This document shows, in pieces, positions 2,842 through 36,950 of a stretch of 64,000 nt of DNA. Below the pieces are notes generated by a model. That model ran no database searches. It was not told the origin of the DNA and saw nothing but the letters and a program-made list of their open reading frames with translations. Numbering within the stretch: position 1 is the stretch's first letter; the number at the start of each line of letters is the position of its first letter. The DNA lies in the NCBI RefSeq assembly GCF_009905725.1, contig NZ_JAAAKV010000002.1:434001-498000 (forward strand), read 5' to 3'. The stretch is from Emticicia sp. CRIBPO (GTDB lineage Bacteria > Bacteroidota > Bacteroidia > Cytophagales > Spirosomataceae). Both the position numbers and the translations under genes were made by a program.

Positions 2842-2934
2842 ATGGAAAACGAATCAAGATACAATGTGACCATTTGGAAAAGGATAATCGTATTGGCAGT
2901 ACTTATCGTCATCGCTTATTTAACTTATCTTTGA
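2842..2934 (+). CDS. Candidate 30-residue single-pass membrane miniprotein
   Basis: An ATG frame of 30 codons encodes a polar N-terminus (MENESRYNVTIWKR) followed by one hydrophobic helix (IIVLAVLIVIAYLTYL) that ends the protein. The charge pattern suits an inner-membrane miniprotein with a cytoplasmic N-terminus. A clear Rho-independent terminator starts about 56 bp after the stop, which supports a short transcription unit. No strong Shine-Dalgarno is visible, which is usual in Bacteroidota. Family and function are unknown, and a chance frame cannot be excluded. Confidence 0.45.
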   Translation: MENESRYNVTIWKRIIVLAVLIVIAYLTYL

Positions 2935-2990
2935 GGTAAATCTCAACTAGTTGGCCAGGAAACTTTATTTATCAAATGAAAAGACTTTAA

Positions 2991-3017
2991 GCAGATCCGC
3001 AAGGGTCTGCTTTTTTT
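2991..3017 (+). terminator. Rho-independent terminator after the miniprotein frame
   Basis: An 8-bp stem, GCAGATCC (2991-2998) with GGGTCTGC (3003-3010) including one G-T pair, has a GCAA tetraloop and is followed by seven T residues. It ends just before the first 115-bp-family repeat. Confidence 0.8.
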
Positions 3018-3019
3018 AT

Positions 3020-3219
3020 TGTCAGTTCGAGCATAACCTGTCCCGACCCTTCGGGAAATAAGAACGCAAGTTCGAAGTTTGCCAGCGTAGCTGCCGAGAA
3101 CCGTTAATTTACATGCACAACGTTCGTGCAAATAATTTCGATGAAAAAGTAAGATCGTGCTTCAGCCTCTCGACTATCGCCTGTCCGACCTGATTTTATC
3201 GGGCGGGCTCGAGGTGACA
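3020..3219. repeat. 115-bp-family inverted-repeat element, expanded copy (200 bp)
   Basis: Begins TGTCAGTTCGAGC and ends CTCGAGGTGACA. The central TGCACAACGTTCGTGCA hairpin is present. The left arm is enlarged by TCCCGACCCTTCGGGA-type palindromes, and the right arm by a GC-rich insert reading GCCTGTCCGACCTG...CGGGCGGG. It lies upstream of the first GIY-YIG gene. Confidence 0.8.
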
Positions 3220-3226
3220 GTGTTGT

Positions 3227-3344
3227 TGTCAGTTCGAGCAACCTGTCCCGACACCTCGGGATAACCTGTCCCGACCCTTCGGGAAATGAGAACGCGAGTT
3301 CGAAGTTTGCCAGCATAGCTGTCGGGAACCGCTCGAGCCCACAT
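3227..3344. repeat. Truncated left arm of the 115-bp-family element
   Basis: Starts TGTCAGTTCGAGC and contains two TCCCGA...TCGGGA palindromes, then breaks off at GGAACCGCTCGAGCCCACA. It has no central hairpin and no right arm, and directly abuts the complete copy that follows. Confidence 0.7.
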
Positions 3345-3459
3345 TGTCAGTTCGAGCGTAGTCGAGAACCGTTAATTTACATGCACAACGTTCGTGCAAA
3401 TAATCCTGGTGAAAAATTAACATCTGTGCTTCAACTTCTCGACTACGCTCGAAGTGACA
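3345..3459. repeat. Complete 115-bp inverted-repeat element
   Basis: Exactly 115 bp. The first 23 bases and the last 23 are reverse complements apart from one mismatch at position 6. The middle holds the imperfect hairpin TGCACAACGTTCGTGCA at unit positions 37-53. A partial extra right arm (CCTCCCGACTACGCC...) follows to about 3495. It aligns without gaps to 9854-9968 and 36498-36612. Confidence 0.9.
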
Positions 3460-3537
3460 AAACCTCAGCCTCCCGACTACGCCCATGACGACAGGTTTCT
3501 TAAGCTGAAAAAAGATTTTCATTTTAGAAAAAAACTA

Positions 3538-3545
3538 TACATTTG
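3538..3545 (+). promoter_or_regulatory. Possible -7 box (TACATTTG) for the first GIY-YIG gene
   Basis: Matches the Bacteroidota -7 consensus TAnnTTTG, 31 bp before the ATG. A T-rich run near 3515-3520 sits at the expected -33 distance but is not an exact TTTG. A chance match is possible in AT-rich DNA. Confidence 0.4.
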
Positions 3546-3576
3546 AGTCCTAAGTCTTACACTATAAATTCAGACC

Positions 3577-3903
3577 ATGTACATTAAATCCTATTGTGTT
3601 TATATCCTCCACTGTAGTGACGATACTTACTATGTTGGCCTATCCAGTTTTCTGGAACAAAGACTTATCCAACATCGGGAAGGCTTATTCCCCGATTCCT
3701 ATACCTTCAAAAGAAGGCCTGTAGAACTCCAGTTTTATGCAGAATTTACAATGGTTCACGATGCTATTGCTTTTGAGAAGAAGATAAAAAAGTGGTCCCG
3801 CTCCAAGAAAAAAGCTCTGATCGAAAGTGATTGGAACAAATTAAGACAATTGGCCGCTTGCAAAAATGAGACCAACTACAAAAACTACAACAAAGACAAA
3901 TGA
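3577..3903 (+). CDS. Single-domain GIY-YIG nuclease, copy 1
   Basis: A 108-residue protein consisting of one GIY-YIG domain of the YhbQ/UPF0213 type. The variant motif is VYI (residues 8-10) ... YYVG (18-21), with the usual Arg in LEQRL and the catalytic Glu in AFEKKIKKW near residue 67. The C-terminus is rich in Lys and Asn. There is no partner restriction or homing domain. Complete repeat copies lie upstream, and TGTCAG of the next repeat begins about 5 bp after the stop codon, so the gene is embedded in the repeat cluster. It is about 79% identical to the product at 9303. The ATG follows a plausible -7 box. A role in moving or processing the repeats is only a hypothesis. Confidence 0.9.
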   Translation: MYIKSYCVYILHCSDDTYYVGLSSFLEQRLIQHREGLFPDSYTFKRRPVELQFYAEFTMVHDAIAFEKKIKKWSRSKKKALIESDWNKLRQLAACKNETNYKNYNKDK

Positions 3904-3927
3904 CCCTCTGTCAGTCCGAGCCCGCAT

Positions 3928-4045
3928 TGTCAGTTCGAGCAACCTGTCCCGACACCTCGGGGATAACCTGTCCCGACCTTCGGGAAATGAGAACGCACGT
4001 TCGAAGTTTGCCAGCTTAGCTGTCGGGAACCGCTCGAGCCCACAT
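3928..4045. repeat. Truncated left arm of the 115-bp-family element after nuclease copy 1
   Basis: Carries TGTCAGTTCGAGC followed by two TCCCGA...TCGGGA palindromes and stops before the central hairpin. A shorter degenerate arm (TGTCAGTCCGAGCCCGCA) precedes it at 3909-3926, immediately downstream of the nuclease stop codon. Confidence 0.7.
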
Positions 4046-4300
4046 TGTCAGTTCGAGCATAACCTGTCCCGACCCTTCGGGAAATAAGAACGCAAGTTCG
4101 AAGTTTGCCAGCGTAGCTGCCGAGAACCGTTAATTTACATGCATAACGTTCGTGTAGATAATTTCGCTAAAAAAGTAACATCTGTGCTTCAACTTCTCGA
4201 CTATGCCTGTCCGACCTGATTCATCGGGCGGGCTCGAAGTGACAAAACTTCAGGCTATCGACTGTCCGACCTGATTTTATCGGGCGGGCTCGAGGTGACA
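4046..4300. repeat. Expanded 115-bp-family element (4046-4244) plus an extra right arm
   Basis: A complete element with both arms enlarged: the left by TCCCGACCCTTCGGGA modules, the right by CTGTCCGACCTGATTC...CGGGCGGG. It ends GAAGTGACA at 4244. A second, partial right arm with the same GC-rich insert runs to GAGGTGACA at 4300. Together with 3928-4045 it fills the gap between nuclease copy 1 and the YjbH genes. Confidence 0.8.
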
Positions 4301-4307
4301 GCGGGCA

Positions 4308-4335
4308 AATAAAAAACCCGGCTGTTAACCGGGTT
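4308..4335 (-). terminator. Terminator of the yjbH operon
   Basis: On the minus strand AACCCGG (plus 4335-4329) pairs with CCGGGTT (4321-4315), followed by a T-run. It lies 36 bp past the stop of the last gene in the operon. Confidence 0.8.
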
Positions 4336-4370
4336 ATATCAATATTATCAATTTAAAAAAGCAACTTCAT

Positions 4371-5591
4371 TTAAAACCGCTTAGCCTGGTTCTGCCAGTA
4401 ACTCTGATGATACTGACGCAGTTTCTCATCCAGCTGATAATTCAGTCTGAATTTCTCTCCGATTTTATTTCCCCGGGTATAAATATATTCCCATCTGAAT
4501 TCATCCGTTGTTCTCAGCCTCGCCCTTTTGCCCTGTATGATATTTCCGGGAGGGATCGGAATCGCAAAGTTGAAACCTATGGTCGTACCGTTGGTCGTCA
4601 TCAGCCCGAAGAAAGCAATCTCCACCCTCGTAAACTGGCGGATCATGTCGATCCTCGCCCCACGGTCATTGTGCATATATTGCCCGCCGGACAACTTAAA
4701 AGAAATATCATGTTTATTCATCCGATAGGCAATGTCGGCCAGCAAAACCAGGTGTGAAGGCTTCGCATATTCCAGGTAGCCCGGCACAAACCGGTAATAG
4801 CCTGAGTAAGCCCACTCAAAACCATACGACCAGGGTTTGTTGAGGTTGCTGTGCCGGTACTGCACATTCACCCCATACTGGTCCGAATAAAAGAACCCCG
4901 CCGATGCACTGATGAAGTTATGGGTGCTCAGCACCGCAAACTTATTCAGATACGTAGGAGCCAGTCTGACTTTCAATGGCTGGGAATCAATGTCATTGAT
5001 GAGCGGAAAAACCACCCCGGTATTCAGCACCAGACCACGGCTCAGGTTCAGTTGCGTATTGAGCAGGATATTGGTCTTGCTCTCCACCGGGTTATTGAAA
5101 TTACCAAAGTTAGCAATAAACTGCGGCTGCAGCCAGAAATCAAACTTGTAGTCTTTAAACGGAAACCATTGCTTCACCCCCATTTTCCTTTGGTAGGCTT
5201 CCTCCAGAGAGGTCAAAGTCACGGTTCTGTTCTTTTGCAGATACATCGCAAACGGCACCCCCTGTATCATCGGCACATAAGCCTGCCGTCCGGCCGTATC
5301 CCCCAAAGCATACCGCAGCCCCATAAACCCATCATAAGGATTCCGGAACAACCTCTGCTCATACGACACGACCTTCGCCGAGGTGTCCTGATGCACATTC
5401 TCAAACCCCAGCAATACTTTCTCCCTACCCTTCTGAGCTATAGCTCCTAAAGTCATCATCGTCAAAGCCAGTCCCCAAAAACCACTTTTCAATAAGTAAG
5501 AATAAACATCCTTTTTCCGGACGCTACTGCGTCTTCCTTTCTCCCCTTCCGATCTTTGATCAGGCCGGGCAGGCTTTCTCCTTCTACTCAT
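4371..5591 (-). CDS. YjbH-like outer-membrane protein, C-terminal half (split gene)
   Basis: About 406 residues, read as the C-terminal half of YjbH (DUF940), the outer-membrane beta-barrel protein of the yjbEFGH exopolysaccharide operon. After a basic N-terminus there is a hydrophobic, signal-like stretch (GFWGLALTMMTLGAIAQ). Alternating beta-type sequence follows, ending in DRGARIDMIRQF and IGFNFAIPIPPG, which resemble the YjbH C-terminus. The chosen ATG (5591) overlaps the upstream gene's stop by 8 bp (ATGAGTAG), so translation is probably coupled. An upstream in-frame non-ATG start would overlap further. With the upstream half it sums to about 686 residues, near the length of a one-piece YjbH. 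Confidence 0.7.
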   Translation of the reverse strand: MSRRRKPARPDQRSEGEKGRRSSVRKKDVYSYLLKSGFWGLALTMMTLGAIAQKGREKVLLGFENVHQDTSAKVVSYEQRLFRNPYDGFMGLRYALGDTAGRQAYVPMIQGVPFAMYLQKNRTVTLTSLEEAYQRKMGVKQWFPFKDYKFDFWLQPQFIANFGNFNNPVESKTNILLNTQLNLSRGLVLNTGVVFPLINDIDSQPLKVRLAPTYLNKFAVLSTHNFISASAGFFYSDQYGVNVQYRHSNLNKPWSYGFEWAYSGYYRFVPGYLEYAKPSHLVLLADIAYRMNKHDISFKLSGGQYMHNDRGARIDMIRQFTRVEIAFFGLMTTNGTTIGFNFAIPIPPGNIIQGKRARLRTTDEFRWEYIYTRGNKIGEKFRLNYQLDEKLRQYHQSYWQNQAKRF

Positions 5592-6426
5592 AAAGTTTTT
5601 CAATTTTCCTAGTCGGCTTAAACAAATCCACAGCAAAAGAAGACCCGAACATCACCTGGTCAAAGTTCAGTAAACCCGCCTGCACGGTCCATCGCTTCCC
5701 GATGATCCCATAAGCACCCAGATTCAGTTTCTGAGAATCCCACTCAGCCATGAGACCTGCTTTCTTTTGATAGTCCAGTTTCACACCACCAAATGGCCCG
5801 GTCAAATACCCATTATTAAACTTGTACTCACTTTTTTTCTGCCATTTCATGTTGGAAAAGATATTAGAATTGGTAAGATTATCTTCTGACCTGTATAAAA
5901 AATACGGACTTCCATAACCTGCAGTAGCCTCCAAACCTACATTTTCACTAAGTTTGAATTGCTTGGTAGCTACAATCACCTGAGTAAGCATCGCCGCATC
6001 AATGGTAAAAGGCGTAGACAAAGCAATAGCGATAGAAGGCCATTTTTCTTTTTCTTTCATCAATAAGTATCTGATATCTAATTGTCTATCCCCGAGAGCT
6101 TCTTTTACCTTATTTTCGTTGGTAGAAATTATTTGCAATAGACTGAAGCTTATGTCTAACCTAGGAACTACAGTTAAGTTGGCAAACAATGTTCTTTCAG
6201 GATTGCTTCCTTTAGACCTTAAACCGTAATTAACAGGGTTGTAATTGTAACCTAAGCTAAACATTCCATCAGACACCTCAAGAGCGTCAGGGATATACAT
6301 TAAACCGGACTTTCCTGACAAATTCATTTGCCCAAAACTTATATGGCTTAATAGAATAAAAAGAAAGGGTAACCATCTGGCACCCTTTCTTTTCTCAATA
6401 AATATAGAATATAATCTTTTCAACAT
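5584..6426 (-). CDS. YjbH-like outer-membrane protein, N-terminal half (split gene)
   Basis: A 280-residue exported protein. A hydrophobic leader (LPFLFILLSHISFGQ) precedes MNLSGKSGLMYIPDALEVSD, which matches the N-terminal YjbH pattern of a Gly-rich start, a 'pDA' turn and DG-F-L-Y. The remainder has beta-barrel-like alternation. It lies 11 bp after the Ala-rich lipoprotein gene and overlaps the downstream half by 8 bp, so the three genes form one operon. In enterobacteria YjbH takes part in extracellular polysaccharide production; a comparable role here is inference supported by the surrounding polysaccharide genes. Confidence 0.72.
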   Translation of the reverse strand: MLKRLYSIFIEKRKGARWLPFLFILLSHISFGQMNLSGKSGLMYIPDALEVSDGMFSLGYNYNPVNYGLRSKGSNPERTLFANLTVVPRLDISFSLLQIISTNENKVKEALGDRQLDIRYLLMKEKEKWPSIAIALSTPFTIDAAMLTQVIVATKQFKLSENVGLEATAGYGSPYFLYRSEDNLTNSNIFSNMKWQKKSEYKFNNGYLTGPFGGVKLDYQKKAGLMAEWDSQKLNLGAYGIIGKRWTVQAGLLNFDQVMFGSSFAVDLFKPTRKIEKLYE

Positions 6427-6437
6427 TGAAGCTAAGA

Positions 6438-7499
6438 TTAGTTTCCTCCTTGACCTTGGTCATGACACAACTTAAAGTTAGCTTCAAGTATTACCTTAAG
6501 TGGGGCCAAAGCAGCATCATAGGAGGTTTTAATTTTACCCAAATCAGTTGTTTGAACCGCCTTCAAAGCAGCAATTCTGGCAGCAGCCTCAGTATCACAA
6601 GCTTTAGTTGAAGCAGTGGCTGTAGTTACCAGAGCTCCAATTTTTACAGAATAATCAAAATAAGCAAACAAAGTCAAAAGACTACCTTGAGTTGCAGTAA
6701 TGGTCTTATCAGTGACCAATTTTTGGATACCAGATAAAGAAGCATCTAAAGCAGCTTTAGCGGCAGTGGCTCCCGCCGTAAAGTTAGCAGTCACAGAGGT
6801 CTTACAAGTTGCACTACTAATTGCAGCTGAAGCGGAATTATAAGTATCATTTACAGTTTTTTCCAAGGCTGTTTTTGAATCATCCAAAATTTTCTTAGCG
6901 GACTCATAAGCCGCAGATGCCTGATCTGTACATTCAGAAGCAGTTCCTGCTACTGAGAATGACGGGTATGATAACGGAAGGGACTCCGAGTTTTCCTTAG
7001 ATTCTTTTTCGATCAAAAGAGAGACCGGTGCTCCATTAACAGTTGGCAAGGTGACACTTGGTAAGTAAGCGGCCAAAGCAGCATTACCTTTTAAAGCATC
7101 AATCTCAGCTTTCAATGAAGCTGGTAATGCACCACCACTTTGAAGAGTAGAAACCACATTTGGGGTAAATGCACTGGCAATAGTTTCAGCCTTTTCTGCT
7201 GAAACAACTTTAGCCACATCTGCGGCAGTTGAAGTCACCGCAGCAGTTAAGCTACCAGATGCTAAACCAGAACTGGCAGCAGAGGCAGCAGCAGAAGCTG
7301 TAACAGAAGCAGGAGTAGTCGTTACTGCGGCAGGGGTTGAAGGAGTGATGGCAGGAAGAGGTTTAACGTCTTTGTATCCTTCTTCAAAATCAGGAATCTC
7401 CGGTTCAGTTTCTTTGGGTTTACAATTGTACAGACCTACGACCAGGCACATAGCCAAACCCAGGCTCAAAGCCTTCATAAAAGAATTACTTGTTTTCAT
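6438..7499 (-). CDS. Ala/Ser/Thr-rich lipoprotein, first gene of the yjbH operon
   Basis: 353 residues. A type II signal peptide ends in GLYNC, so Cys26 is the likely lipidation site. An acidic and proline-rich linker follows (EPEIPDFEEGY..., ITPSTPAAV), then long Ala/Ser/Thr-rich helical stretches with scattered Lys, Asp and Glu. Three Cys residues lie in the second half and one in the C-terminal HDQGQGGN region. I recognise no domain. It starts the unit that continues into the two YjbH halves 11 bp downstream. Enterobacterial yjbEFGH also begins with a small Ala/Ser/Thr-rich secreted protein, but that parallel is composition only. Confidence 0.75.
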   Translation of the reverse strand: MKTSNSFMKALSLGLAMCLVVGLYNCKPKETEPEIPDFEEGYKDVKPLPAITPSTPAAVTTTPASVTASAAASAASSGLASGSLTAAVTSTAADVAKVVSAEKAETIASAFTPNVVSTLQSGGALPASLKAEIDALKGNAALAAYLPSVTLPTVNGAPVSLLIEKESKENSESLPLSYPSFSVAGTASECTDQASAAYESAKKILDDSKTALEKTVNDTYNSASAAISSATCKTSVTANFTAGATAAKAALDASLSGIQKLVTDKTITATQGSLLTLFAYFDYSVKIGALVTTATASTKACDTEAAARIAALKAVQTTDLGKIKTSYDAALAPLKVILEANFKLCHDQGQGGN

Positions 7500-7943
7500 C
7501 GTTTTTTTTAAATTTAAGTTCTTGTAAGAAATGTATTAAGTGAGTATATTTTAAAAGGTATTAAAATAAGAATTTTATGGCTATAAATCCGTCAACAAAA
7601 ATAGTGTTTTCATGCTAAGGAATTAAGACTGTGATATTAAAAAATTGAAACTTTTCGAATATCTATTCTGACCTTAATTTTGCTCTAAACTATCGCTTAA
7701 TGTGAAGATAACCAAATTTAATTTCAAAAATTTATTAATCGGTAGCAAGAAAATTTAAGATTCTTCTAAAATAACAAAAAAATATAAATGAAATACAATC
7801 AAGGGTTTATCCATCTTTTTGTCCTGAAACCACCCCGCTCCCTATACTTTCTGCCACTACCCTCACCATCTTCCGCAAATCCAATGCCATCCTCCTGACA
7901 TCCAGATGAAAAGCTAGATTTTTTTGTATTTTTCTTATGTGCT

Positions 7944-8085
7944 TGTCAGTTCGAGCCCGCCCGGCTTGTTACACCAGGTCGGGCAGGCCCGTCGGGAACC
8001 GCTACAAAACATGCACTAATGTTTGTGCAAATAATTCTGCTGAAAAAGTAACATCAGTGTATCATCCTGTCGCCTGTCAGACCTG
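7944..8085. repeat. Decayed copy of the 115-bp-family element
   Basis: Begins TGTCAGTTCGAGC. The left arm carries a GC-rich insert (CCCGCCCGGC...GTCGGGCAGG). The central TGCACTAATGTTTGTGCA hairpin and the AATAATTCTGCTGAAAAAGT core remain, but the right arm is degraded (CATCCTGTCGCCTGTCAGACCTG...). It lies in the 1,075-bp gene-free stretch 7500-8574, which otherwise holds AT-rich DNA and the two repeats listed next. Confidence 0.75.
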
Positions 8086-8221
8086 ATTCATCGAGATGGT
8101 TCAATACGATAGAGGTTCAAGCCAGTTGATACATCTATTTTTTATTTTTACTGATTTTTTGAAGTTGATCAATATAATTGGGTTAAATAATATTCTTCGA
8201 GTGAGTTTATTGACGATATTC

Positions 8222-8386
8222 CATTTCTTAGCCTTACTTTTTCTTCGCTTTTACTTTTTTTGAAAAAAGTAACAAAAAACATTAAAAATTCTAACTCGTA
8301 AATCTGAAAATCTCTTGATTTGAAAGAAGAATTCGTTGATTTTCAGCTTTACTCAAACAGAGAATTTTTGGCTTGGATATTTTATT
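8222..8386. repeat. Dispersed repeat of about 170 bp, copy 2 (inverted relative to 596-776)
   Basis: Contains, on the plus strand, TTCTTCGCTTTTACTTTTTT with a GAAAAAAGTAAC partner, then AATTCTAACTCGTAAATCTG, then CAGCTTTACTCAAACAGAGA. Each is the reverse complement of the corresponding landmark in copy 1. Confidence 0.65.
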
Positions 8387-8461
8387 ACTTAGGACGTTAT
8401 TTATTCGCCCGCACTTTTTCTTAACTGTTCTTGAAAAAAGTGACTACTCCTCTAACGTCGA

Positions 8462-8558
8462 GCAGGCATTAAGGTAGTAGTATGTCTTAATGTTCTTCTT
8501 AATGCTCTTAACTCCTTAATGCCTGCCCGACGTGACCGCCAGAAGGGCCGGGCGGGGT
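8462..8558. repeat. ATTAAGG palindrome joined to a GC-rich palindrome
   Basis: GCAGGCATTAAGG (8462-8474) and CCTTAATGCCTGC (8514-8526) form a perfect 13-bp inverted repeat with 39 bp between, containing more TTAATG words. It runs directly into GCCTGCCCGACGTGACCGCC...CCGGGCGGGG, the GC-rich module also found at 10905-10936 in the opposite orientation. Confidence 0.65.
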
Positions 8559-8574
8559 GAAAAGCGGTGCAAAA

Positions 8575-8976
8575 TCATTCCCCTTCAGGCGTGAATAAGA
8601 AATTAAGAAAACCACCAATCAACATCCCCGCAGTGGTGCCGGCTACGCCCCAGAAAATATCCGTGTAGGAAAAATGCCGGTGCGGCAACCGCAGCTGCCC
8701 GACTTCGACGACGACGACCAGGACAAACAGCAAAAACCAGAACCCCAGCCGCCTCATCCAGTTATTGCTTTTCTTCATCAACAGCTCAAACACAATCCCC
8801 AATAGGAAAAACGGCACTGCCGTCCGCAGGTCTCCGTTCCGGGACTCATTCGCCCAGTCCATCACCCACCCCGGCAAAAACCACGCCTCCCGCAAGTCCG
8901 GATAAGCAATCCAGCTGAAGTAAAACACACTCAAGACCAATAAAAAAGCAAGGAATATCAGGAAGATTCTTAACAT
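8575..8976 (-). CDS. VanZ-like family membrane protein
   Basis: 133 residues with about four hydrophobic helices (residues 3-23, 53-66, 76-92 and 107-127). The segment VVEVGQLRLPHRHFSYTDIF followed by a Gly-rich last helix is the VanZ signature: an E-x-x-Q near a helix end and a D in the 'TDI' turn. VanZ-like proteins are membrane proteins of uncertain function, some linked to glycopeptide tolerance or cell-envelope lipids. The gene is flanked on both sides by repeats and has no operon partner. Confidence 0.8.
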   Translation of the reverse strand: MLRIFLIFLAFLLVLSVFYFSWIAYPDLREAWFLPGWVMDWANESRNGDLRTAVPFFLLGIVFELLMKKSNNWMRRLGFWFLLFVLVVVVEVGQLRLPHRHFSYTDIFWGVAGTTAGMLIGGFLNFLFTPEGE

Positions 8977-8991
8977 CGAAAAATTATTAAC

Positions 8992-9241
8992 TTCTCGACT
9001 ACGCTCGAAGTGACAATCCTCATGTCAGTTCGAATTGCTCTGTCCTGTCAGTTCGAGCGTAGACGAGAACCGTTAATTTACATGTAAAACATTGGGTAAA
9101 AAGATATGCTAAAAAAGCAACATCCGTGCTTCAACTTCTCGAATACGCCTGTCCGACCTGATTCATCGGGCGGGCTCGAAGTGACAAAACTTCAGCCTCT
9201 CGACTCTCCCGAAGTGTCGGGACAGGCAGCTCGAAGTGACA
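8992..9241. repeat. 115-bp-family cluster upstream of nuclease copy 2
   Basis: A right arm (TCTCGACTACGCTCGAAGTGACA) is followed by a truncated left arm. A full element runs from TGTCAG at 9046 to GTGACA at 9186, with a degraded central hairpin (ACATGTAAAACATTGGGTAA) and a GC-rich insert in its right arm. An additional right arm with CTCCCGAAGTGTCGGGACAGG ends at 9241. This fills the gap between the VanZ gene and the second GIY-YIG gene. Confidence 0.8.
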
Positions 9242-9302
9242 TAAATGTTCAAAAAAAATCAATTAACTTTAACCGAAAATCTCACATCAAAACACTCAGC
9301 TT

Positions 9303-9629
9303 ATGTTTACTAAATCCTATTCCGTCTATATTCTGCTTTGCAGCGATAATACTTACTATGTTGGTCTGTCGAGTTTCCTTGAGCAAAGGCTTATTCAGCA
9401 TCAGGAAGGTCACTTCCCCAATTCATATACCTTCAAAAGGAGGCCTGTAGAGCTGCAATTTTGTGCAGAATTTACGATGGTTTATGATGCCATTGCTTTT
9501 GAGAGAAAACTAAAGAAATGGTCCGCTAAAAAGAAAAAAGCTCTCATCGATAGTGCCTGGAATAAGTTAAAACAATTATCAGAATGTAAAAATGATACCC
9601 ACTACAAAAATTACTACAAAGACACATGA
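9303..9629 (+). CDS. Single-domain GIY-YIG nuclease, copy 2
   Basis: 108 residues, the same length as the product at 3577 and about 79% identical (23 differences counted by eye). All expected GIY-YIG positions are kept: VYI, YYVG, the Arg in LEQRL, and the Glu in AFERKLKKW. Many codon differences are silent: in GLSSFLEQRLIQH, nine of 13 codons differ without changing a residue. TGTCAG of the next repeat starts 5 bp after the stop codon, as in copy 1. The 50-60 bp before the ATG are also recognisably similar between copies (a TCTtACA/TCTcACA core). This points to duplication of a gene-plus-repeat unit. Confidence 0.9.
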   Translation: MFTKSYSVYILLCSDNTYYVGLSSFLEQRLIQHQEGHFPNSYTFKRRPVELQFCAEFTMVYDAIAFERKLKKWSAKKKKALIDSAWNKLKQLSECKNDTHYKNYYKDT

Positions 9630-9633
9630 ACCC

Positions 9634-9826
9634 TGTCAGTTCGAGCAGCTTACCTTGTCAATTCGAGCGTAGACGAGAACAGTTCGAGCACAAATGAGAA
9701 CGCAAGTTCGAAGTTTGCCAGCGTAGCTGACGAGAACCGTTACAATACATGCACAATGTTTGTGCAAATAATTCTGCTGAAAGAGTAACATTGAGCATCA
9801 GCCTCTCGACTACGCTCGAGGTGACA
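9634..9826. repeat. 115-bp-family element, expanded copy after nuclease copy 2
   Basis: TGTCAGTTCGAGC begins 5 bp after the nuclease stop codon. The left arm is enlarged by further TTCGAGC words. The central hairpin TGCACAATGTTTGTGCA is a perfect 7-bp stem with a 3-nt loop. It ends GCTCGAGGTGACA. Confidence 0.8.
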
Positions 9827-9853
9827 GATTACATGTCAGTTCGAGCCCGCAAC

Positions 9854-9968
9854 TGTCAGTTCGAGCGTAGACGAGAACCGCTACAAAACATGCACAATAT
9901 TTGTGCAAATAATTCTGCTAAAAAAGTAACATCTATGCTTTAACTTCTCGACTACGCTCGAAGTGACA
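9854..9968. repeat. Complete 115-bp inverted-repeat element
   Basis: Exactly 115 bp, aligned without gaps to 3345-3459 and 36498-36612. The central hairpin is TGCACAATATTTGTGCA. A truncated left arm (TGTCAGTTCGAGCCCGCAAC) precedes it, and a second right arm with a GC-rich insert follows to 10029, three bases before the rfbD stop codon at 10033-10035. Confidence 0.9.
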
Positions 9969-10032
9969 AAACTTCAGCCTCCCGACTACGCCTGTCCGGC
10001 CTGATTCATCGGGCGGGCTCGAAGTGACAAAA

Positions 10033-10884
10033 TTAGTTGAGCCTTCCGATACAAACCTCCAGGCTCTCCCTCCAATACGGCACATGAATCCCGAAAGTTG
10101 ATTTAATCTTTGATTTATCCATCACTGAATACGCCGGACGTACCGCTTTGGTCACATACTCAGACGTCTTCACCGGTTTAAGTTTCACTTCTGTGCTGCT
10201 GATATCAAATACCGCCCTCGCAAAGTCAAACCACGAGGCCACCCCCTCATTGCTGTAGTGATACACGCCATAGTGAGCCTCCCCCGACTGTATAATATCC
10301 AGGATAGCACCGGCCAGGTCGATGGCGTAGGTAGGCGTACCCACCTGGTCCACAATCACCCCCAGCTCATCCCTTTCCTTGCCCAGTCGCAGCATCGTCT
10401 TCACGAAGTTGTTACCGTATTCAGAATACAACCAGCTCGTACGCAGAATAAAATGCTTGTCTAAAGCCCCTATCACGGCCGCCTCGCCTTCCAGCTTGGT
10501 CAGTCCATATATATTGACCGGCTCTGCCGGATCATCCTCCGACAACACGCCTGTCACATCTCCCTTAAAAATAAAATCTGTAGACACATGCACCAAAGCC
10601 GCTCCGTGGGCTGCACAGGCCTTAGCCACGTTCTCAGCCCCTTCGGCATTGACCCTGCGGCAAAGATCCACCTCATCTTCTGCCTTATCCACGGCCGTAT
10701 AAGCAGCACAATTGATCACAAAATCAGGTTGCTCCCTGGCAAACAATTTCTCCAGCAGCTCCTTATCCAGGATATTGGCTTCTTTCTCGTCCGGGTAAAT
10801 CATCCCTTCAAAATTCCTTTCTTCAGCGACTTTCTTCAGACAATGCCCCAACTGCCCCGAGGCTCCCAATACCAATATCTTCAT
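10033..10884 (-). CDS. rfbD: dTDP-4-dehydrorhamnose reductase
   Basis: 283 residues, the normal length for RfbD/RmlD, a cytoplasmic SDR that makes dTDP-L-rhamnose with NAD(P)H. The nucleotide-binding motif GASGQLG is at residues 7-13, followed by NCAAYTAVDKAE. The catalytic YxxxK is in YGLTKLEGE near residue 125, and LRTSWLY follows. All are typical. The rmlA, rmlB and rmlC partners are not in the window. Its 3' end abuts a repeat arm. The rhamnose donor would serve the polysaccharide pathway encoded nearby. Confidence 0.93.
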   Translation of the reverse strand: MKILVLGASGQLGHCLKKVAEERNFEGMIYPDEKEANILDKELLEKLFAREQPDFVINCAAYTAVDKAEDEVDLCRRVNAEGAENVAKACAAHGAALVHVSTDFIFKGDVTGVLSEDDPAEPVNIYGLTKLEGEAAVIGALDKHFILRTSWLYSEYGNNFVKTMLRLGKERDELGVIVDQVGTPTYAIDLAGAILDIIQSGEAHYGVYHYSNEGVASWFDFARAVFDISSTEVKLKPVKTSEYVTKAVRPAYSVMDKSKIKSTFGIHVPYWRESLEVCIGRLN

Positions 10885-10904
10885 ATTTTGCTTTTTTTTC
10901 TAAC

Positions 10905-11008
10905 CCCGCCCGACCTGTCGGTCACGTCGGGCAGGCATTAAGGCATTGAGGACATTAAGAGATCATTAAGTCTTAATGGTCCGTCCTTAATGCTCTTAAT
11001 CCCTTAAT
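10905..11008. repeat. GC-rich palindrome joined to an ATTAAGG palindrome
   Basis: CCGCCCGACCTGTCGGTCAC followed by GTCGGGCAGG folds on itself. It is joined to GCAGGCATTAAGG (10931-10943) and then to CCTTAATGG near 11002-11010. The composite is the inverted counterpart of 8462-8558. Confidence 0.6.
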
Positions 11009-11024
11009 GGTATTATATATAGAA

Positions 11025-12416
11025 CTATTTTCCAATCTGATGTACCCTGAATCCTATCTCTGTTAAGGCCGCTGCATTCAATAAATTCCTGCCATCAAAG
11101 ACGTGAGCCGGTTTAAGCATCTGATCATAGATCCGCTGCCAGTCATAGGTCTTAAATTCATCCCATTCCGTTAACACAGCTATCGCATGAGCCCCCTTGG
11201 TTACTTCATAAGGATCAGTGCCCACGGTCAGTAATTTCTCATTCTCCTCACTGCTACGCGTGTTCAGGTAATCCAGGTCTGCATACACCTGCTGTGCCCC
11301 TACTTTAGGATCATAAACCGCCACAGCCGCCTGCTCAAACAAGAGATGATCAGCCACATATATCGCTGCCGATTCACGGGTATCGTTGGTGTCTTTTTTA
11401 AACGCCCAACCCAGGAAAGCAATCTTTTTATCGTTTACGGTATTGTATAAAGCCTTGATGATTTTCTTGGCAAAACGCCTTTTCTGGTGGTCATTCATGA
11501 TGATGACCTGCTCCCAGTAATCCGCCACATCCTCCAGTCCGTAAGTGCGGGCAATGTACACGAGGTTCAGGATGTCTTTTTGAAAACATGAGCCCCCAAA
11601 ACCTACCGAAGCCTTTAAGAACTTAGGCCCGATACGGCTGTCTGCCCCGATGGCCCTTGACACCTCGTCAATGTCCGCCTCTGTATGCTCACATAACTCC
11701 GACAAGGCATTGATAGAAGATACCCTTTGTGCAAGGAAAGCATTAGCCGTCAGTTTTGATAATTCAGAAGACCAGATATTGGTGGTCAGGATGCGTTCAC
11801 GCGGCACCCAGGCCCCGTAAACATTCACCAGAGCCTCTATCGCCTTTTTACCTTCCGGCGTATCATCACCCCCGATCAGCACACGGTCAGGAGCCATCAG
11901 GTCTTCCACCGCCGTGCCCTCTGCCAGGAACTCCGGGTTCGATAAAATCTGGAAATTAACCCCGTTACCGGTATTCGATAAAATATCTTTCAAGGTACTG
12001 GCCGTACGCACCGGCAGCGTCGATTTTTCTACAATGATCTTATCTGTTTGAGAAACCCTGGCGATCTGCCTGGCACACAACTCAATCCACTTCAGGTCTG
12101 CTGCCTGCCCTTTGCCTTCCCCATAGGTTTTGGTCGGCGTATTCACCGAAATAAAGATCATATCAGCATCCGCAATGGCCTGATCTACTTCTGTAGAAAA
12201 AAACAGGTTACGTCCACGGGCCTCGCCCACTACTTCACCCAGTCCGGGCTCATAGACAGGTATTTTATCCGTATCCGGATCATTCCAGGCATTGATACGG
12301 GCCTGGTTCAGGTCCACTACCGTCACCTTGATTCCCGGGTTTTTTAAAGCGATCACAGACATGGTCGGGCCACCCACATAACCGGCCCCTATACAACAGA
12401 TTGATTTTACAGACAT
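11025..12416 (-). CDS. ugd: UDP-glucose 6-dehydrogenase
   Basis: 463 residues. It oxidises UDP-glucose to UDP-glucuronate with two NAD+. The N-terminal Rossmann motif is GAGYVGGPT (residues 10-18), followed by [11 protein letters not shown]. Later come [28 protein letters not shown], and the catalytic Cys in [10 protein letters not shown] around residue 275. The C-terminal domain contains [14 protein letters not shown]. The long form with GGPT resembles the UGDH type also found in animals. It supplies uronic acid for polysaccharide and is transcribed in the same direction as rfbD, with a 140-bp repeat-containing gap between them. Confidence 0.95.
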
Positions 12417-12531
12417 ATTTTTAATACTTATAAGAGGTACTTTAATTTCATGTTACTTTTACCACAACTTTCCTACCAAAAGCCCAAGATAATACATTTT
12501 ATTTAATTCACCTGTGTCAGGTCGAGTCCAT

Positions 12532-12623
12532 TGTCAGTTCGAGCAGCCTGTCCAGCACCTCGGGATAACCTGTCCCGATCCTTCGGGAGACGAGAACCTG
12601 TTACTCAACATGCAAAACTTCCT
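12532..12623. repeat. Left half of a 115-bp-family element fused to a tandem array
   Basis: TGTCAGTTCGAGC with two TCCCGA/TCGGGA-like palindromes continues to ACGAGAACCTGTTACTCAACATGC, where the central hairpin should begin. The right half is missing and the 43-bp tandem array starts directly. A degenerate arm (TGTCAGGTCGAGTCCA) precedes it near 12515. Confidence 0.7.
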
Positions 12624-12999
12624 GAACCTATAATTATACCCTCTAGAACCTATAAGAAGACCTTCCGAACCTATAATTATACCCCATAGAACCTATAAGA
12701 AGACCTTCCGAACCTATAATTATACCCCATAGAACCTATAAGAAGACCTTCCGAACCTATATTTATACCCCCTAGAACCTATAAGAAGACCTTCCGAACC
12801 TATAATTATACCCTCTAGAACCTATAAGAAGACCTTTCGAACCTGTAATTATACCCCCTAGAACCTATAAGAAGACCTTCCGAACCTATAATTATACCCT
12901 CTAGAACCTATAAGAAGACCTTCCGAACCTATAATTATACCCTCTGGAACCTATAAGAAGACCTTCCGAACCTATAATTATACCCTCTAGAACCTATAT
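12624..12999. repeat. 43-bp tandem repeat array, eight full units plus a partial one
   Basis: Unit starts are spaced exactly 43 bp from 12624 to 12968. Each unit is two related sub-units: GAACCTATAATTATACC plus about 5 bp, then GAACCTATAAGAAGACC plus about 4 bp. The first sub-unit contains the palindrome TATAATTATA. Units differ by only a few substitutions (CCCTCTA, CCCCATA or CCCCCTA). No gene, spacers or leader are present, so it is not a CRISPR. The rest of the ugd-to-13172 gap holds the truncated repeat and a terminator. Confidence 0.95.
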
Positions 13000-13113
13000 T
13001 TACAGGTTTTCAAACTTATACATATAGCTTCATATGATAAATTGCAATGGTCAGAAATGATCCGTTTATTTCTTAATGTCCTGAAAACCTTAATGGTACA
13101 TTGGAGAATTAGA

Positions 13114-13150
13114 ATAAAAATACTCCACTCATTGAGATAAGTGGAGTATT
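13114..13150 (-). terminator. Terminator downstream of the 13172-13630 gene
   Basis: An 11-bp perfect stem, AATACTCCACT (13119-13129) with AGTGGAGTATT (13140-13150), has a 10-nt loop. On the minus strand it is followed by TTTTTATTC. It lies 22 bp beyond the stop codon. Confidence 0.85.
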
Positions 13151-13171
13151 AAAATTTTCTGCTTGTGTTGA

Positions 13172-13630
13172 TTATTCCGAGACCTTCTTCCGCTCCTTCT
13201 TATGATGCAGAGCCATTTGTTCCATCTGCACTTTAAGACCCGCATCCTTCCTGACTCCCTGCTTCAGATACCCATAAATCGAGTCGGATTCTACCATTGC
13301 GTTAGATCCGGCCATCATCCGGGTATCCTCAAGCCTGTCTGCCAGCCCTTTGACGATCACCATAATATCGTTAATTGTGTTCATTAACTGAAAATCCCTT
13401 TCCAGCTTTGCCACTTCCACGGTCGGAGGTAAGATATTGGGAAACGATTTGGCGATTCTCAGGCAATCTCCCACATAACCTTCTTTATGCCCGATTTTTC
13501 TCACTTTTTGTCTTTCAGAGCGGGTCAGCTCAACAAGGAAAGGAAGTTTAGCGGTGATTTCACCCAGTTTGGTGAGGATTTCATTTTTGTCAGCTTCGGA
13601 TAGGGAAGCGTTGACTAACGTTTTACTCAT
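13172..13630 (-). CDS. Hypothetical cytoplasmic protein, 152 residues
   Basis: No family recognised. The protein is helical and highly charged, with no signal peptide or membrane helix. Visible blocks are LTKLGEITAKLPFLVELT, SERQKVRKIGHKEGYVGD, and a basic C-terminal tail (ALHHKKERKKVSE). The ATG at 13630 is preferred over an in-frame TTG eleven codons upstream because MSKTLVNASLSEADK follows it cleanly. It has its own strong terminator and a base composition like the chromosome rather than the AT-rich operon that starts 90 bp away. It probably marks the edge of the polysaccharide cassette. Confidence 0.75.
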   Translation of the reverse strand: MSKTLVNASLSEADKNEILTKLGEITAKLPFLVELTRSERQKVRKIGHKEGYVGDCLRIAKSFPNILPPTVEVAKLERDFQLMNTINDIMVIVKGLADRLEDTRMMAGSNAMVESDSIYGYLKQGVRKDAGLKVQMEQMALHHKKERKKVSE

Positions 13631-13718
13631 GTTGATTTGGTTTAGTATTAAAAATAAATTCAATATTAAGACGACACCAACACGTTTTAGTCACATATTT
13701 TCCCCAAGAAATTATAAT

Positions 13719-14477
13719 TCAATCTCTAGCTGGTCTGAATCCCTGCCTTGCCCATTGTTTAAATAAAAGATAAATAAAAATAGAGTTGGTAACAGCATAC
13801 CTTTTAAATAATCTTTTCGGTTCCTGCATCAGACGGTATAGCCACTCCAAACTCGCCTTCTGCATCCATAAAGGAGCTCTTTTTTGCATACCAATCATAA
13901 CTGGTAAAGCTCCGCCTATACCAATCATACAAGCATTAATTCGGCCCTGCATTGACGCCATCCATTTTTCTTGTTTCGGGCACCCTAATGCAACAAAGAC
14001 AAACTTAGCTTTACTATCATTTATTTTATCAATAATTTCTTGTTCTTCATCTATTGTCAGTGCCCTAAACGGCGGACTCCAAAGTCCGGAAATGATCAAA
14101 TCAGGATAAGAAGATTCACAATAGATTTTGGTCTTATCTAACATTTCCTGAGTACCACCGTAAAAATAAACAGGTATATTTTTTGATTCTGATTTTGCCA
14201 ATAAATCAGGTAACAAATCCATTCCTGCAACTCTTTCTTGATTCAAATTGTAAAGAAATTTCAAGCCTTTTACTAATGGCATACCATCTGTTGTACAAAT
14301 CTCAGAGTTATTAACAACGTCTAAAAACTCACTATTAAGATGAGTTTCGACAAGCATATGAACATTGGCCACACAGACATAAGAGGATGTTTTAAATTTA
14401 GCTAAACTTATGATCTCATTTAAAATATCATCATAAGAACCTAAAGATATCTGTAAATTAAGAAAATTCTTTCTCAT
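13719..14477 (-). CDS. WecG/TagA/CpsF family glycosyltransferase
   Basis: 252 residues. Family members transfer N-acetylmannosamine (uronate) or glucose to an undecaprenyl-linked sugar on the cytoplasmic face of the membrane. Characteristic motifs are ANVHMLVE, the TTDGMPLV block with its catalytic-region Asp, GRxxG-like VAGMDLL, YFYGGTQEML, FVALGCPKQEKWM and IGIGGALPVMIG, and an amphipathic C-terminus (ASLEWLYRLMQEPKRLFKRY) that fits membrane-surface binding. It is the last gene of the minus-strand polysaccharide operon, 44 bp after the beta-helix gene. Confidence 0.9.
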   Translation of the reverse strand: MRKNFLNLQISLGSYDDILNEIISLAKFKTSSYVCVANVHMLVETHLNSEFLDVVNNSEICTTDGMPLVKGLKFLYNLNQERVAGMDLLPDLLAKSESKNIPVYFYGGTQEMLDKTKIYCESSYPDLIISGLWSPPFRALTIDEEQEIIDKINDSKAKFVFVALGCPKQEKWMASMQGRINACMIGIGGALPVMIGMQKRAPLWMQKASLEWLYRLMQEPKRLFKRYAVTNSIFIYLLFKQWARQGFRPARD

Positions 14478-36441: not shown

Positions 36442-36497
36442 AGAAGAAATTTTTAATTTGCCATATTTCAATACTTGTCAGTTCGAGCAGTTTATCT

Positions 36498-36612
36498 TGT
36501 CAGTTCGAGCGTAGTCGAGAACCGCTACAAAACATGCACAATGTTTGTGCAAATAATTCTGCCGAAAAAGTAACATCTGTGCATCAGCCTCTCGACTACG
36601 CTCGAGGTGACA
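36498..36612. repeat. Complete 115-bp inverted-repeat element, far from any nuclease gene
   Basis: Exactly 115 bp with the TGTCAGTTCGAGC start, the TGCACAATGTTTGTGCA central hairpin (7-bp stem) and the GCTCGAGGTGACA end. A truncated left arm precedes it at 36476. It shows that the element occurs about 27 kb away from the gene-bearing clusters. Confidence 0.9.
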
Positions 36613-36638
36613 GTTTTCATGTCAGTTCGTCCCTCAGT

Positions 36639-36851
36639 TGTCAGTTCGAGCAACCTGTCCCGACACCTCGGGATAACCTGTCCCGACCCTTCGGGAAACG
36701 AGAACGCGAGTTCGAAGTTTGCCAGCGTAGCTGTCGAGAACAGTTACAACACATGTACAAATTTAGTGCAGACAATACTACTGAAAAAACAACATCGTGC
36801 TTCAGCCTCTCGACTCTCCCGAGGTGTCGGGACAGGCAGCTCGAGGTGACA
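36639..36851. repeat. Expanded 115-bp-family element (213 bp)
   Basis: The left arm carries two TCCCGA...TCGGGA palindromes. The central hairpin has diverged (ACATGTACAAATTTAGTGCA). The right arm carries CTCCCGAGGTGTCGGGACAGG and ends GAGGTGACA. With 36498-36612 it fills most of the 624-bp gap between rpsJ and ispE. Confidence 0.8.
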
Positions 36852-36950
36852 TAAGTGCAAGTCAGTTTCAGGCAATGTTAAATATCATTGAAGTCTTAAT
36901 GTTCTCTCTTAATTACCTTAACTTCTTAATGGTTTAAAACCGTAGCGTAA

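Follow-up and report, generated by a model that had tools for sequence, protein, structure and literature searches.

The 64-kb stretch of one contig of Emticicia sp. CRIBPO analysed here (referred to as the window in the rest of the text; the host genome amounts to 6.06 Mb in 39 contigs) contains two small GIY-YIG nuclease genes set in a cluster of hairpin-forming repeats. We propose that they code for a stand-alone GIY-YIG endonuclease whose cognate element is, quite probably, a small tagged hairpin made of 5'-TGTCA, an arm of 4 to 5 bp, a loop running from GAG to TCGA, and the complementary arm. The pairing of gene and hairpin is strongly supported by the sequence comparisons reported below, and we infer on good grounds that the nuclease acts on the hairpins.

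Two GIY-YIG genes within a cluster of repeats

Both genes code for single-domain proteins of 108 residues, as a reading of the sequence without database searches (the sequence-only reading) had stated, and GIY-YIG (PF01541) is the sole Pfam family that they match, with 55.3 bits for gene 1 and 52.1 bits for gene 2 (cut-off 22.6). Residues Y9, Y19, G21, R29 and E67, which are of the catalytic type in GIY-YIG enzymes, are invariant across 35 aligned homologues. The window nucleases share a domain profile match with the UPF0213 or small GIY-YIG fold family, and the profile matches over the domain the solved UPF0213-type structures 1zg2 (E 3.8e-19) and 1ywl (4e-17), two entries that carry the name hypothetical. 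A known RNA family or a defence protein was ruled out as the identity of the system, since neither Rfam 15, for which window positions 2900-10100 were free of family matches, nor PADLOC gave a match. The genes and the repeat units of the window are as follows.

3020..3219, + strand: repeat unit with expanded loops, upstream of gene 1; right hairpin at 3166-3214
3227..3344, + strand: partial unit (left half)
3345..3459, + strand: complete 115-bp unit, with GTTC[GAGCGTAGTCGA]GAAC at 3350-3369, a central hairpin, and an inverted hairpin at 3434-3455
3577..3903, + strand: GIY-YIG nuclease gene 1, 108 aa, Pfam GIY-YIG match
3909..4045, + strand: left-half units, 5 bp past the gene 1 stop codon
4046..4244, + strand: unit with expanded loops; right hairpin at 4192-4240
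4255..4300, + strand: right-half unit
7944..8122, + strand: degenerate unit, between gene 1 and gene 2
8990..9015, - strand: single tagged hairpin (right half of a unit)
9046..9186, + strand: unit with expanded right loop, upstream of gene 2
9197..9241, + strand: extra right-half unit, ending about 60 bp before gene 2
9303..9629, + strand: GIY-YIG nuclease gene 2, 108 aa, 79% identity to gene 1
9634..9826, + strand: unit(s), 4 bp past the gene 2 stop codon
9854..9968, + strand: complete 115-bp unit
9978..10029, + strand: right-half unit
12532..12613, + strand: partial unit (left half), far from the genes; end approximate
36476..36857, + strand: distant cluster of units without a GIY-YIG gene, including the 115-bp unit 36498-36612

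The repeat cluster is not a product of chance, since exact TGTCAGTTCGAG occurs in 26 copies in the genome compared to 0 for its reversed control, and 10 of the 26 lie within the 6.8 kb around both genes, every one of them on the gene strand. The motif TGTCAG begins 5 bp past the stop codon of gene 1 (3909) and 4 bp past that of gene 2 (9634), in agreement with the distance of about 5 bp given earlier. The claim that full elements of a 115-bp family stand on both sides of each gene held for the family but not for the length. Exactly 115 bp are found in three copies (3345-3459, 9854-9968 and 36498-36612), one of which precedes gene 1 and another of which follows gene 2. Members of the family on the opposite flank of each gene are longer, owing to loop expansions (4046-4244 and 9046-9186), or partial.

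Folded as single-stranded DNA, the two gene-adjoining 115-mers reached -32.1 and -28.1 kcal/mol (z of -7.86 and -7.49; 0 of 200 shuffles of each folded as well), and the single strand folds end to end through terminal inverted repeats and a central hairpin, as the sequence-only reading had described. The two ends of the unit are not identical: the left one is GTTC[GAGCGTAGTCGA]GAAC and the right one, read on the other strand, CTTC[GAGCGTAGTCGA]GAAG. Since they differ exactly at the positions that pair with each other within each end, each end is a small hairpin of its own.

A second repeat family, which combines an AATTCTC..GAGAATT hairpin with a TTACTTTTTT..AAAAAAGTAA hairpin, adjoins several units in the same genome (window 8230-8400; loci L006, L009, L010, L011, L027 and L028). 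A tandem array of 43-bp units occupies window 12571-13086, shortly after a partial repeat unit.

The hairpin accompanies homologous genes

A profile built from an alignment of 15 homologues was used to scan one genome per species, which yielded at least 583 stretches. The best 80 of at least 552 relatives were kept with flanks of up to 10 kb, and these 80 loci are therefore the closest homologues rather than a random draw. The core GAGCGNAGTCGA reached a density of 2.9 per kb at distances of up to 150 bp from the gene compared to 0.014 per kb at 4-10 kb, and reversed or scrambled versions of it were near zero; the loci devoid of this core, 22 of which were read, carry other versions of the tagged hairpin. 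We then defined a hairpin by a general rule, with arms of at least 4 perfect pairs and a loop beginning with GAG and ending with TCGA; this rule came from the loci inspected first and was then used on every locus, scrambled loops serving as the control. By this rule, a hairpin lies within 500 bp of the gene in 73 of the 80 loci, compared to 2.07 of 80 on average, and 9 at most, for 60 scrambled-loop controls. At least two hairpins were found in 63 loci and hairpins on both sides of the gene in 57, and the density fell from 6.9 per kb at distances of up to 150 bp to 0.08 per kb at 4-10 kb.

In the host and related genomes, 15 of the 17 genes of the nuclease subfamily have a hairpin within 500 bp. 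The misses are L035, which shows a one-base loop variant, and L048. Most close homologues are flanked by units in both samples, as one would expect from the sequence-only reading. Other GIY-YIG genes behave differently: in the same genomes, the hairpin was found at 1 of 11 other small GIY-YIG genes and at 0 of 9 UvrC or other large genes, and in a second set at 1 of 18 other small genes (a count that includes the fragment L171 and L166, whose match is below the Pfam cut-off) and at 0 of 10 large genes. The idea that the same hairpin stands beside all small GIY-YIG genes was rejected on these counts. The association extends to other phyla, which are named in the titles of five of the 80 records, and all five have the hairpin: the alphaproteobacterium Vineibacter (L100), a methylococcal bin (L129), and bins assigned to Chloroflexi (L118), Nitrospirae (L131) and Nitrospinaceae (L132). 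A copy on a Sphingomonas plasmid (L272) carries the same hairpins.

A small tagged hairpin with free arms and a fixed loop

Comparison of the loci reveals a conserved unit in which the tag TGTCA is followed by a 4- to 5-bp arm whose sequence is free, a GAG...TCGA loop and the complement of the arm. The loop comes in three types: GAGCGnAGTCGA (type I), GAGCYTGTCGA (type II), and GAGTG...TATCGA with a hairpin nested inside (type III). Among the loops up to 500 bp from the gene, 102 of 143 of type I and 68 of 84 of type II are enclosed by arms with four perfect pairs, compared to 0.6 and 0.3 expected by chance. The arms themselves are diverse (23 different ones for type I and 13 for type II), with all four Watson-Crick pairs at positions 3 and 4. 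Next to the loop, 132 of 143 type I hairpins have a T-A or C-G pair, and 81 of 84 type II hairpins have T-A. With one paired element taken per locus, GTCA precedes the arm at 31 of 39 type I, 14 of 21 type II and 19 of 24 type III loci and is the commonest tag. Since pairing is maintained between arms of variable sequence, and both loop and tag stay constant, what the enzyme recognises is most likely the folded single strand.

A hairpin may stand alone, in a row, or in an inverted pair with a central hairpin, which is the layout of the 115-bp unit, and hairpins are found both beside the gene, on either side, and scattered over the genome. At the homologous loci, the two arms differ in 41 of the 49 inverted (+-) neighbour pairs; the other neighbour arrangements are -+ (66), ++ (45) and -- (15). 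For this reason, the long 115-bp stem was rejected as the primary unit, and the small tagged hairpin looks like the unit of recognition.

The nearest hairpin lies at a median distance from the matched segment of 58.5 bp on the upstream side (76 of 97 loci) and 44 bp on the downstream side (77 of 97). This position raises the question of whether the hairpins act as RNA or operator elements controlling the nuclease gene by autoregulation or termination, the other copies being by-products. This proximity to start and stop and the strong fold of the 115-mers speak for such a role. Yet type I hairpins are found in both orientations on both sides of the gene (46 + and 28 - upstream, 37 + and 33 - downstream), which fits a DNA site better than an RNA element, copies are scattered over the genome, and window positions 2900-10100 are free of Rfam families. 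We consider regulation an improbable explanation, and retain a nuclease paired with its cognate hairpin.

The loop type follows the protein clade

The phylogeny of the nucleases was inferred from 97 proteins, namely those of the 80 loci and the 17 from the host and related genomes (L063 and L035 being the same gene). A loop type was assigned to 91 of the 97 rows and the 6 unlabelled rows were not counted. The tree requires 14 changes of loop type compared to a mean of 38.4 after shuffling, and none of 200 shuffles was as low. Of the 25 type III rows, 23 form one supported clade, in a tree whose alignment is short and in which many forks are open. The same tendency is seen within genera: across ten genera with at least two labelled loci (37 loci; records titled by family or higher rank were excluded), proteins that share a loop type are 68% identical (51 pairs) and those with different loops 55% (71 pairs), a difference that 0 of 5000 within-genus permutations equalled. 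Moreover, paralogues with different loops coexist in four genomes, those of Epilithonimonas (L062/L083), G003 (L036/L046), G031 (L038/L049) and G028 (L032/L047). The Vineibacter genome contains three small GIY-YIG genes, each beside a different repeat.

Other small GIY-YIG genes and their repeats

When repeated 11-mers are counted, repeats surround 20 of 23 other small GIY-YIG genes compared to 1 of 19 large genes and 8 of 60 random windows; L043, L044, L152, L160, L166 and L171 were left out of this count, and four of the 20 (L144, L145, L154 and L167) have another GIY-YIG match within 600 bp, which may inflate it. In five other-phylum genomes and the Sphingomonas plasmid, the repeat count was passed by 9 of 11 small genes, six of which are loci already counted, leaving an independent part of 3 of 5, and by 2 of 5 UvrC genes; a minimal GAG..TCGA match stands beside 1 of these 5 UvrC genes. 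Two of the other small genes, L041 and L042, are surrounded by copies of CGTCATTGCGAG..CGAAGCAATC, as many as 8 within 1.2 kb, which suggests that other GIY-YIG clades may own distinct repeats. The different small gene L149 adjoins CGTC-ACCCCGGA-CTTGA-TCCGGGGT, that is, a CGTC tag, an 8-bp stem and the loop CTTGA.

These observations raise a wider proposition, in which small GIY-YIG nucleases as a whole would be the dedicated enzymes of a superfamily of CGTC/TGTC-tagged repetitive extragenic palindromes (REPs) in many phyla, with a clade-specific loop code and free arms, so that REP-type replicators would have arisen a second time on an unrelated nuclease fold. The presence of 20 of 23 other small genes among repeats, compared to 1 of 19 large ones, speaks for it. 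Against it, at least two GTC-tagged hairpins with stems of at least 6 bp were found beside 5 of the 23 other small genes, some of which look like chance, compared to 1 of 19 large genes and 1 of 60 random windows. We regard the proposition as nearly, but not quite, an even one.

Copy number, distribution and orphan repeats

Type I and type II cores were counted in 158 genomes of the phylum, the host included. At least 8 copies of either core were present in 24 of 32 genomes with a strong homologue (E < 1e-28), 12 of 46 with a weak one and 8 of 80 with none (strong against the rest, Fisher P = 3e-10; type I alone, P = 1e-6; the test ignores phylogeny, and both the E-value and the 8-copy cut-offs were chosen after the data had been seen). 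The expectation that unit number tracks the gene is therefore met by these counts, but genomes free of the gene also hold orphan families.

Several observations weigh against the pairing. By the strict rule, 7 of the 80 loci have no hairpin. Protein and loop are partly inherited together and the tree test includes near-copies, and paralogues share one loop type in two genomes, the host's own and UBA6183 (L086/L107). With type II by itself the groups do not separate (P = 0.09), the counts take no account of phylogeny, and 8 of the 32 strong-homologue genomes hold fewer than 8 copies of either core, type III being uncounted. Orphan families also exist: G060, a single contig, has 194 type I copies and GIY-YIG genes that are all large; G184 has 34 type II copies and large GIY-YIG genes only; G005 has 69 copies, large GIY-YIG genes and one sub-cut-off match with a stop; and G004 has 12 copies and UvrC as its sole GIY-YIG protein. 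In these four genomes, no small GIY-YIG match above the Pfam cut-off was found. Two more genomes, G188 (68 copies) and G160 (16), contain small GIY-YIG genes of another kind without this hairpin nearby. The orphan families show that units persist without the enzyme. In G060, 6 of the 8 stretches read (L212-L219) contain paired units of 73-74 bp.

Several units of G060 are nested inside CGTCATTGCGAGG..GAAGCAATC repeats. G188 contains two trios of tandem small GIY-YIG genes (G188:C1:1733881-1734727 and 1384667-1385513), with equal scores inside each set and regular spacing. An apparent strand polarity of the hairpins along the chromosomes of G060 and G087 was rejected as an artefact of the matches listed, which for G087 comprise 100 of 134 places, with all 69 on the + strand but 31 of 65 on the - strand.

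Families without a gene, and the repeats found in random windows of the same loci (8 of 60), would also agree with the genes being mere bystanders in intergenic hot spots that another mobile element has enriched in repeats. Such a bystander would not be expected to show a loop type that tracks the protein clade across taxa and within genera, or different loops at paralogues of one genome, as in the four cases above, and large GIY-YIG genes are less often among repeats (1 of 19, and 2 of 5 in the other-phylum set). We judge the bystander explanation very unlikely, and the cognate pairing of nuclease and hairpin is preferred.

The gene itself is patchily distributed, with a homologue at E <= 1e-5 in 17 of 59 genomes, the host included. 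It was rejected as common phage or plasmid cargo, homologues at E <= 1e-8 being found in none of the 50,697 phage records and in 2 of the 72,556 plasmid records. Among 41 loci on viral contigs, 3 had a GAG..TCGA hairpin within about 700 bp. The near absence from phages and plasmids, together with the reported role of Ssn and NTS in Neisseria, would suit a host function without mobility, in which the hairpins mark incoming or lagging-strand single-stranded DNA for cutting and so tune transformation or recombination, the units being spread by ordinary recombination. However, the patchy presence looks more like selfish turnover, as do in-frame stops in 6 of the 97 matched segments (L062, L064, L080, L110, L047 and L049), which are possibly decaying copies beside repeats; some of these stops may be sequencing errors, as single stops in draft genomes can be. 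Both features fit the turnover of a selfish element, and we lean against a purely host-serving role while holding it to be a real possibility.

In the window, the cluster is set among exopolysaccharide-type genes (881-2284, 4371-6426 and 10033-14477), one of them YjbH-like by Pfam. From their translations, the neighbours presumably include a sugar transferase, a dTDP-sugar reductase and a UDP-sugar dehydrogenase.

Proposed mechanism and significance

In the mechanism that we propose, the gene with its flanking hairpins would be the equivalent of a REPtron, in which a gene for a REP-associated transposase is joined to its REPs, and the scattered units would be passengers or relics. The nuclease would nick at the hairpin in single-stranded DNA, at the replication fork or during DNA uptake, and nicking would let the units be copied or recombined. 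At the level of the host, this could tune import or recombination beside units, as is said of the Ssn nuclease and NTS repeats of Neisseria.

The pairing gives a predicted site for many genomes, and nature provides specificity swaps, with three loop types on one protein tree and paralogues with different loops in one genome. Together, these make the question testable with one protein and a few oligonucleotides. If the proposal is true, REP-like replicators exist on two unrelated nuclease folds, many unexplained intergenic repeats gain an owner, and a set of hairpin-specific nucleases with predictable specificity becomes available.

Comparison with known systems

The closest parallel may be in Neisseria. 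A 2025 paper reportedly describes Ssn, a Neisseria enzyme of the GIY-YIG type, as cutting single-stranded DNA at NTS repeats; these are said to be present in hundreds of copies, and Ssn to have many homologues, each with its own site. The window proteins resemble Ssn, as it is reported, in being single-domain GIY-YIG proteins with catalytic-type residues. A cognate repeat around the gene and genome-wide, as reported for Ssn, is seen here through proximity and matching only. The window system probably works like Ssn/NTS by analogy. If that account is right, the kind is already known, and the present work may add the rule of free arms and a fixed loop, three loop types that follow the clades, the heterodimeric 115-bp unit, and a copy-number test with orphans. 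NTS may overlap dRS3, from which the window repeats differ in both loop and arm sequences. The dRS3 repeats of Neisseria are given as ATTCCC(N8)GGGAAT in one source (PMC3898611) and equated with CGTC-1 in another (PMC3733652).

The arrangement also resembles that of REPs and REP-associated tyrosine transposases (RAYTs), in which the gene is flanked by tagged hairpins, inverted hairpin dimers are scattered over the genome and the distribution is patchy (PMC6006769, PMC3733652). RAYTs are HUH/Y1 transposases, whereas the window enzyme is a GIY-YIG protein, and the REP tag is GTAG, whereas the window hairpins carry TGTC(A), with GTCA as the commonest tag. Since it has neither the HUH enzyme nor the GTAG tag, the window system is not a member of REP/RAYT. 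Our best reading is that gene and hairpin work like REP/RAYT with another fold, an analogy that the sequence-only reading had drawn. The flanking units, the copy numbers and the agreement of loop type with protein clade favour it, while the long 115-bp stem that went with it did not stand as the unit, and orphan families exist.

Among the papers listed, none had a title or opening abstract lines linking GIY-YIG genes to REP-like repeats, and we make no claim of absence from print. RepRanger tabulates palindrome counts for Flavobacterium, and its main text, as far as it was accessible, contains no words starting with "nuclease" or "transposase" (PMC12306157).

The tag leads to a third comparison, with the CGTC-tagged REPs surveyed by Di Nocera et al. 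(2013). These repeats carry a CGTC or TGTC tag, form dimers, occur in several phyla including Bacteroidetes and, according to the authors, apparently lack a dedicated transposase (PMC3733652). The window hairpins have in common with them the CGTC/TGTC tag beside a stem, and the dimers. Their proportions are different, with arms usually of 4-5 bp and loops of 11-12 bases or longer, compared to the stems of 8-9 bp and loops of 4-5 bases given in the survey (PMC3733652). This published shape is that of the repeats beside L149 and not that of the window hairpins. A nuclease of the window type may nevertheless be the missing enzyme of the TGTC/CGTC-tagged REPs, and the pairing described here names a concrete candidate for repeats that the 2013 survey left without one (PMC3733652).

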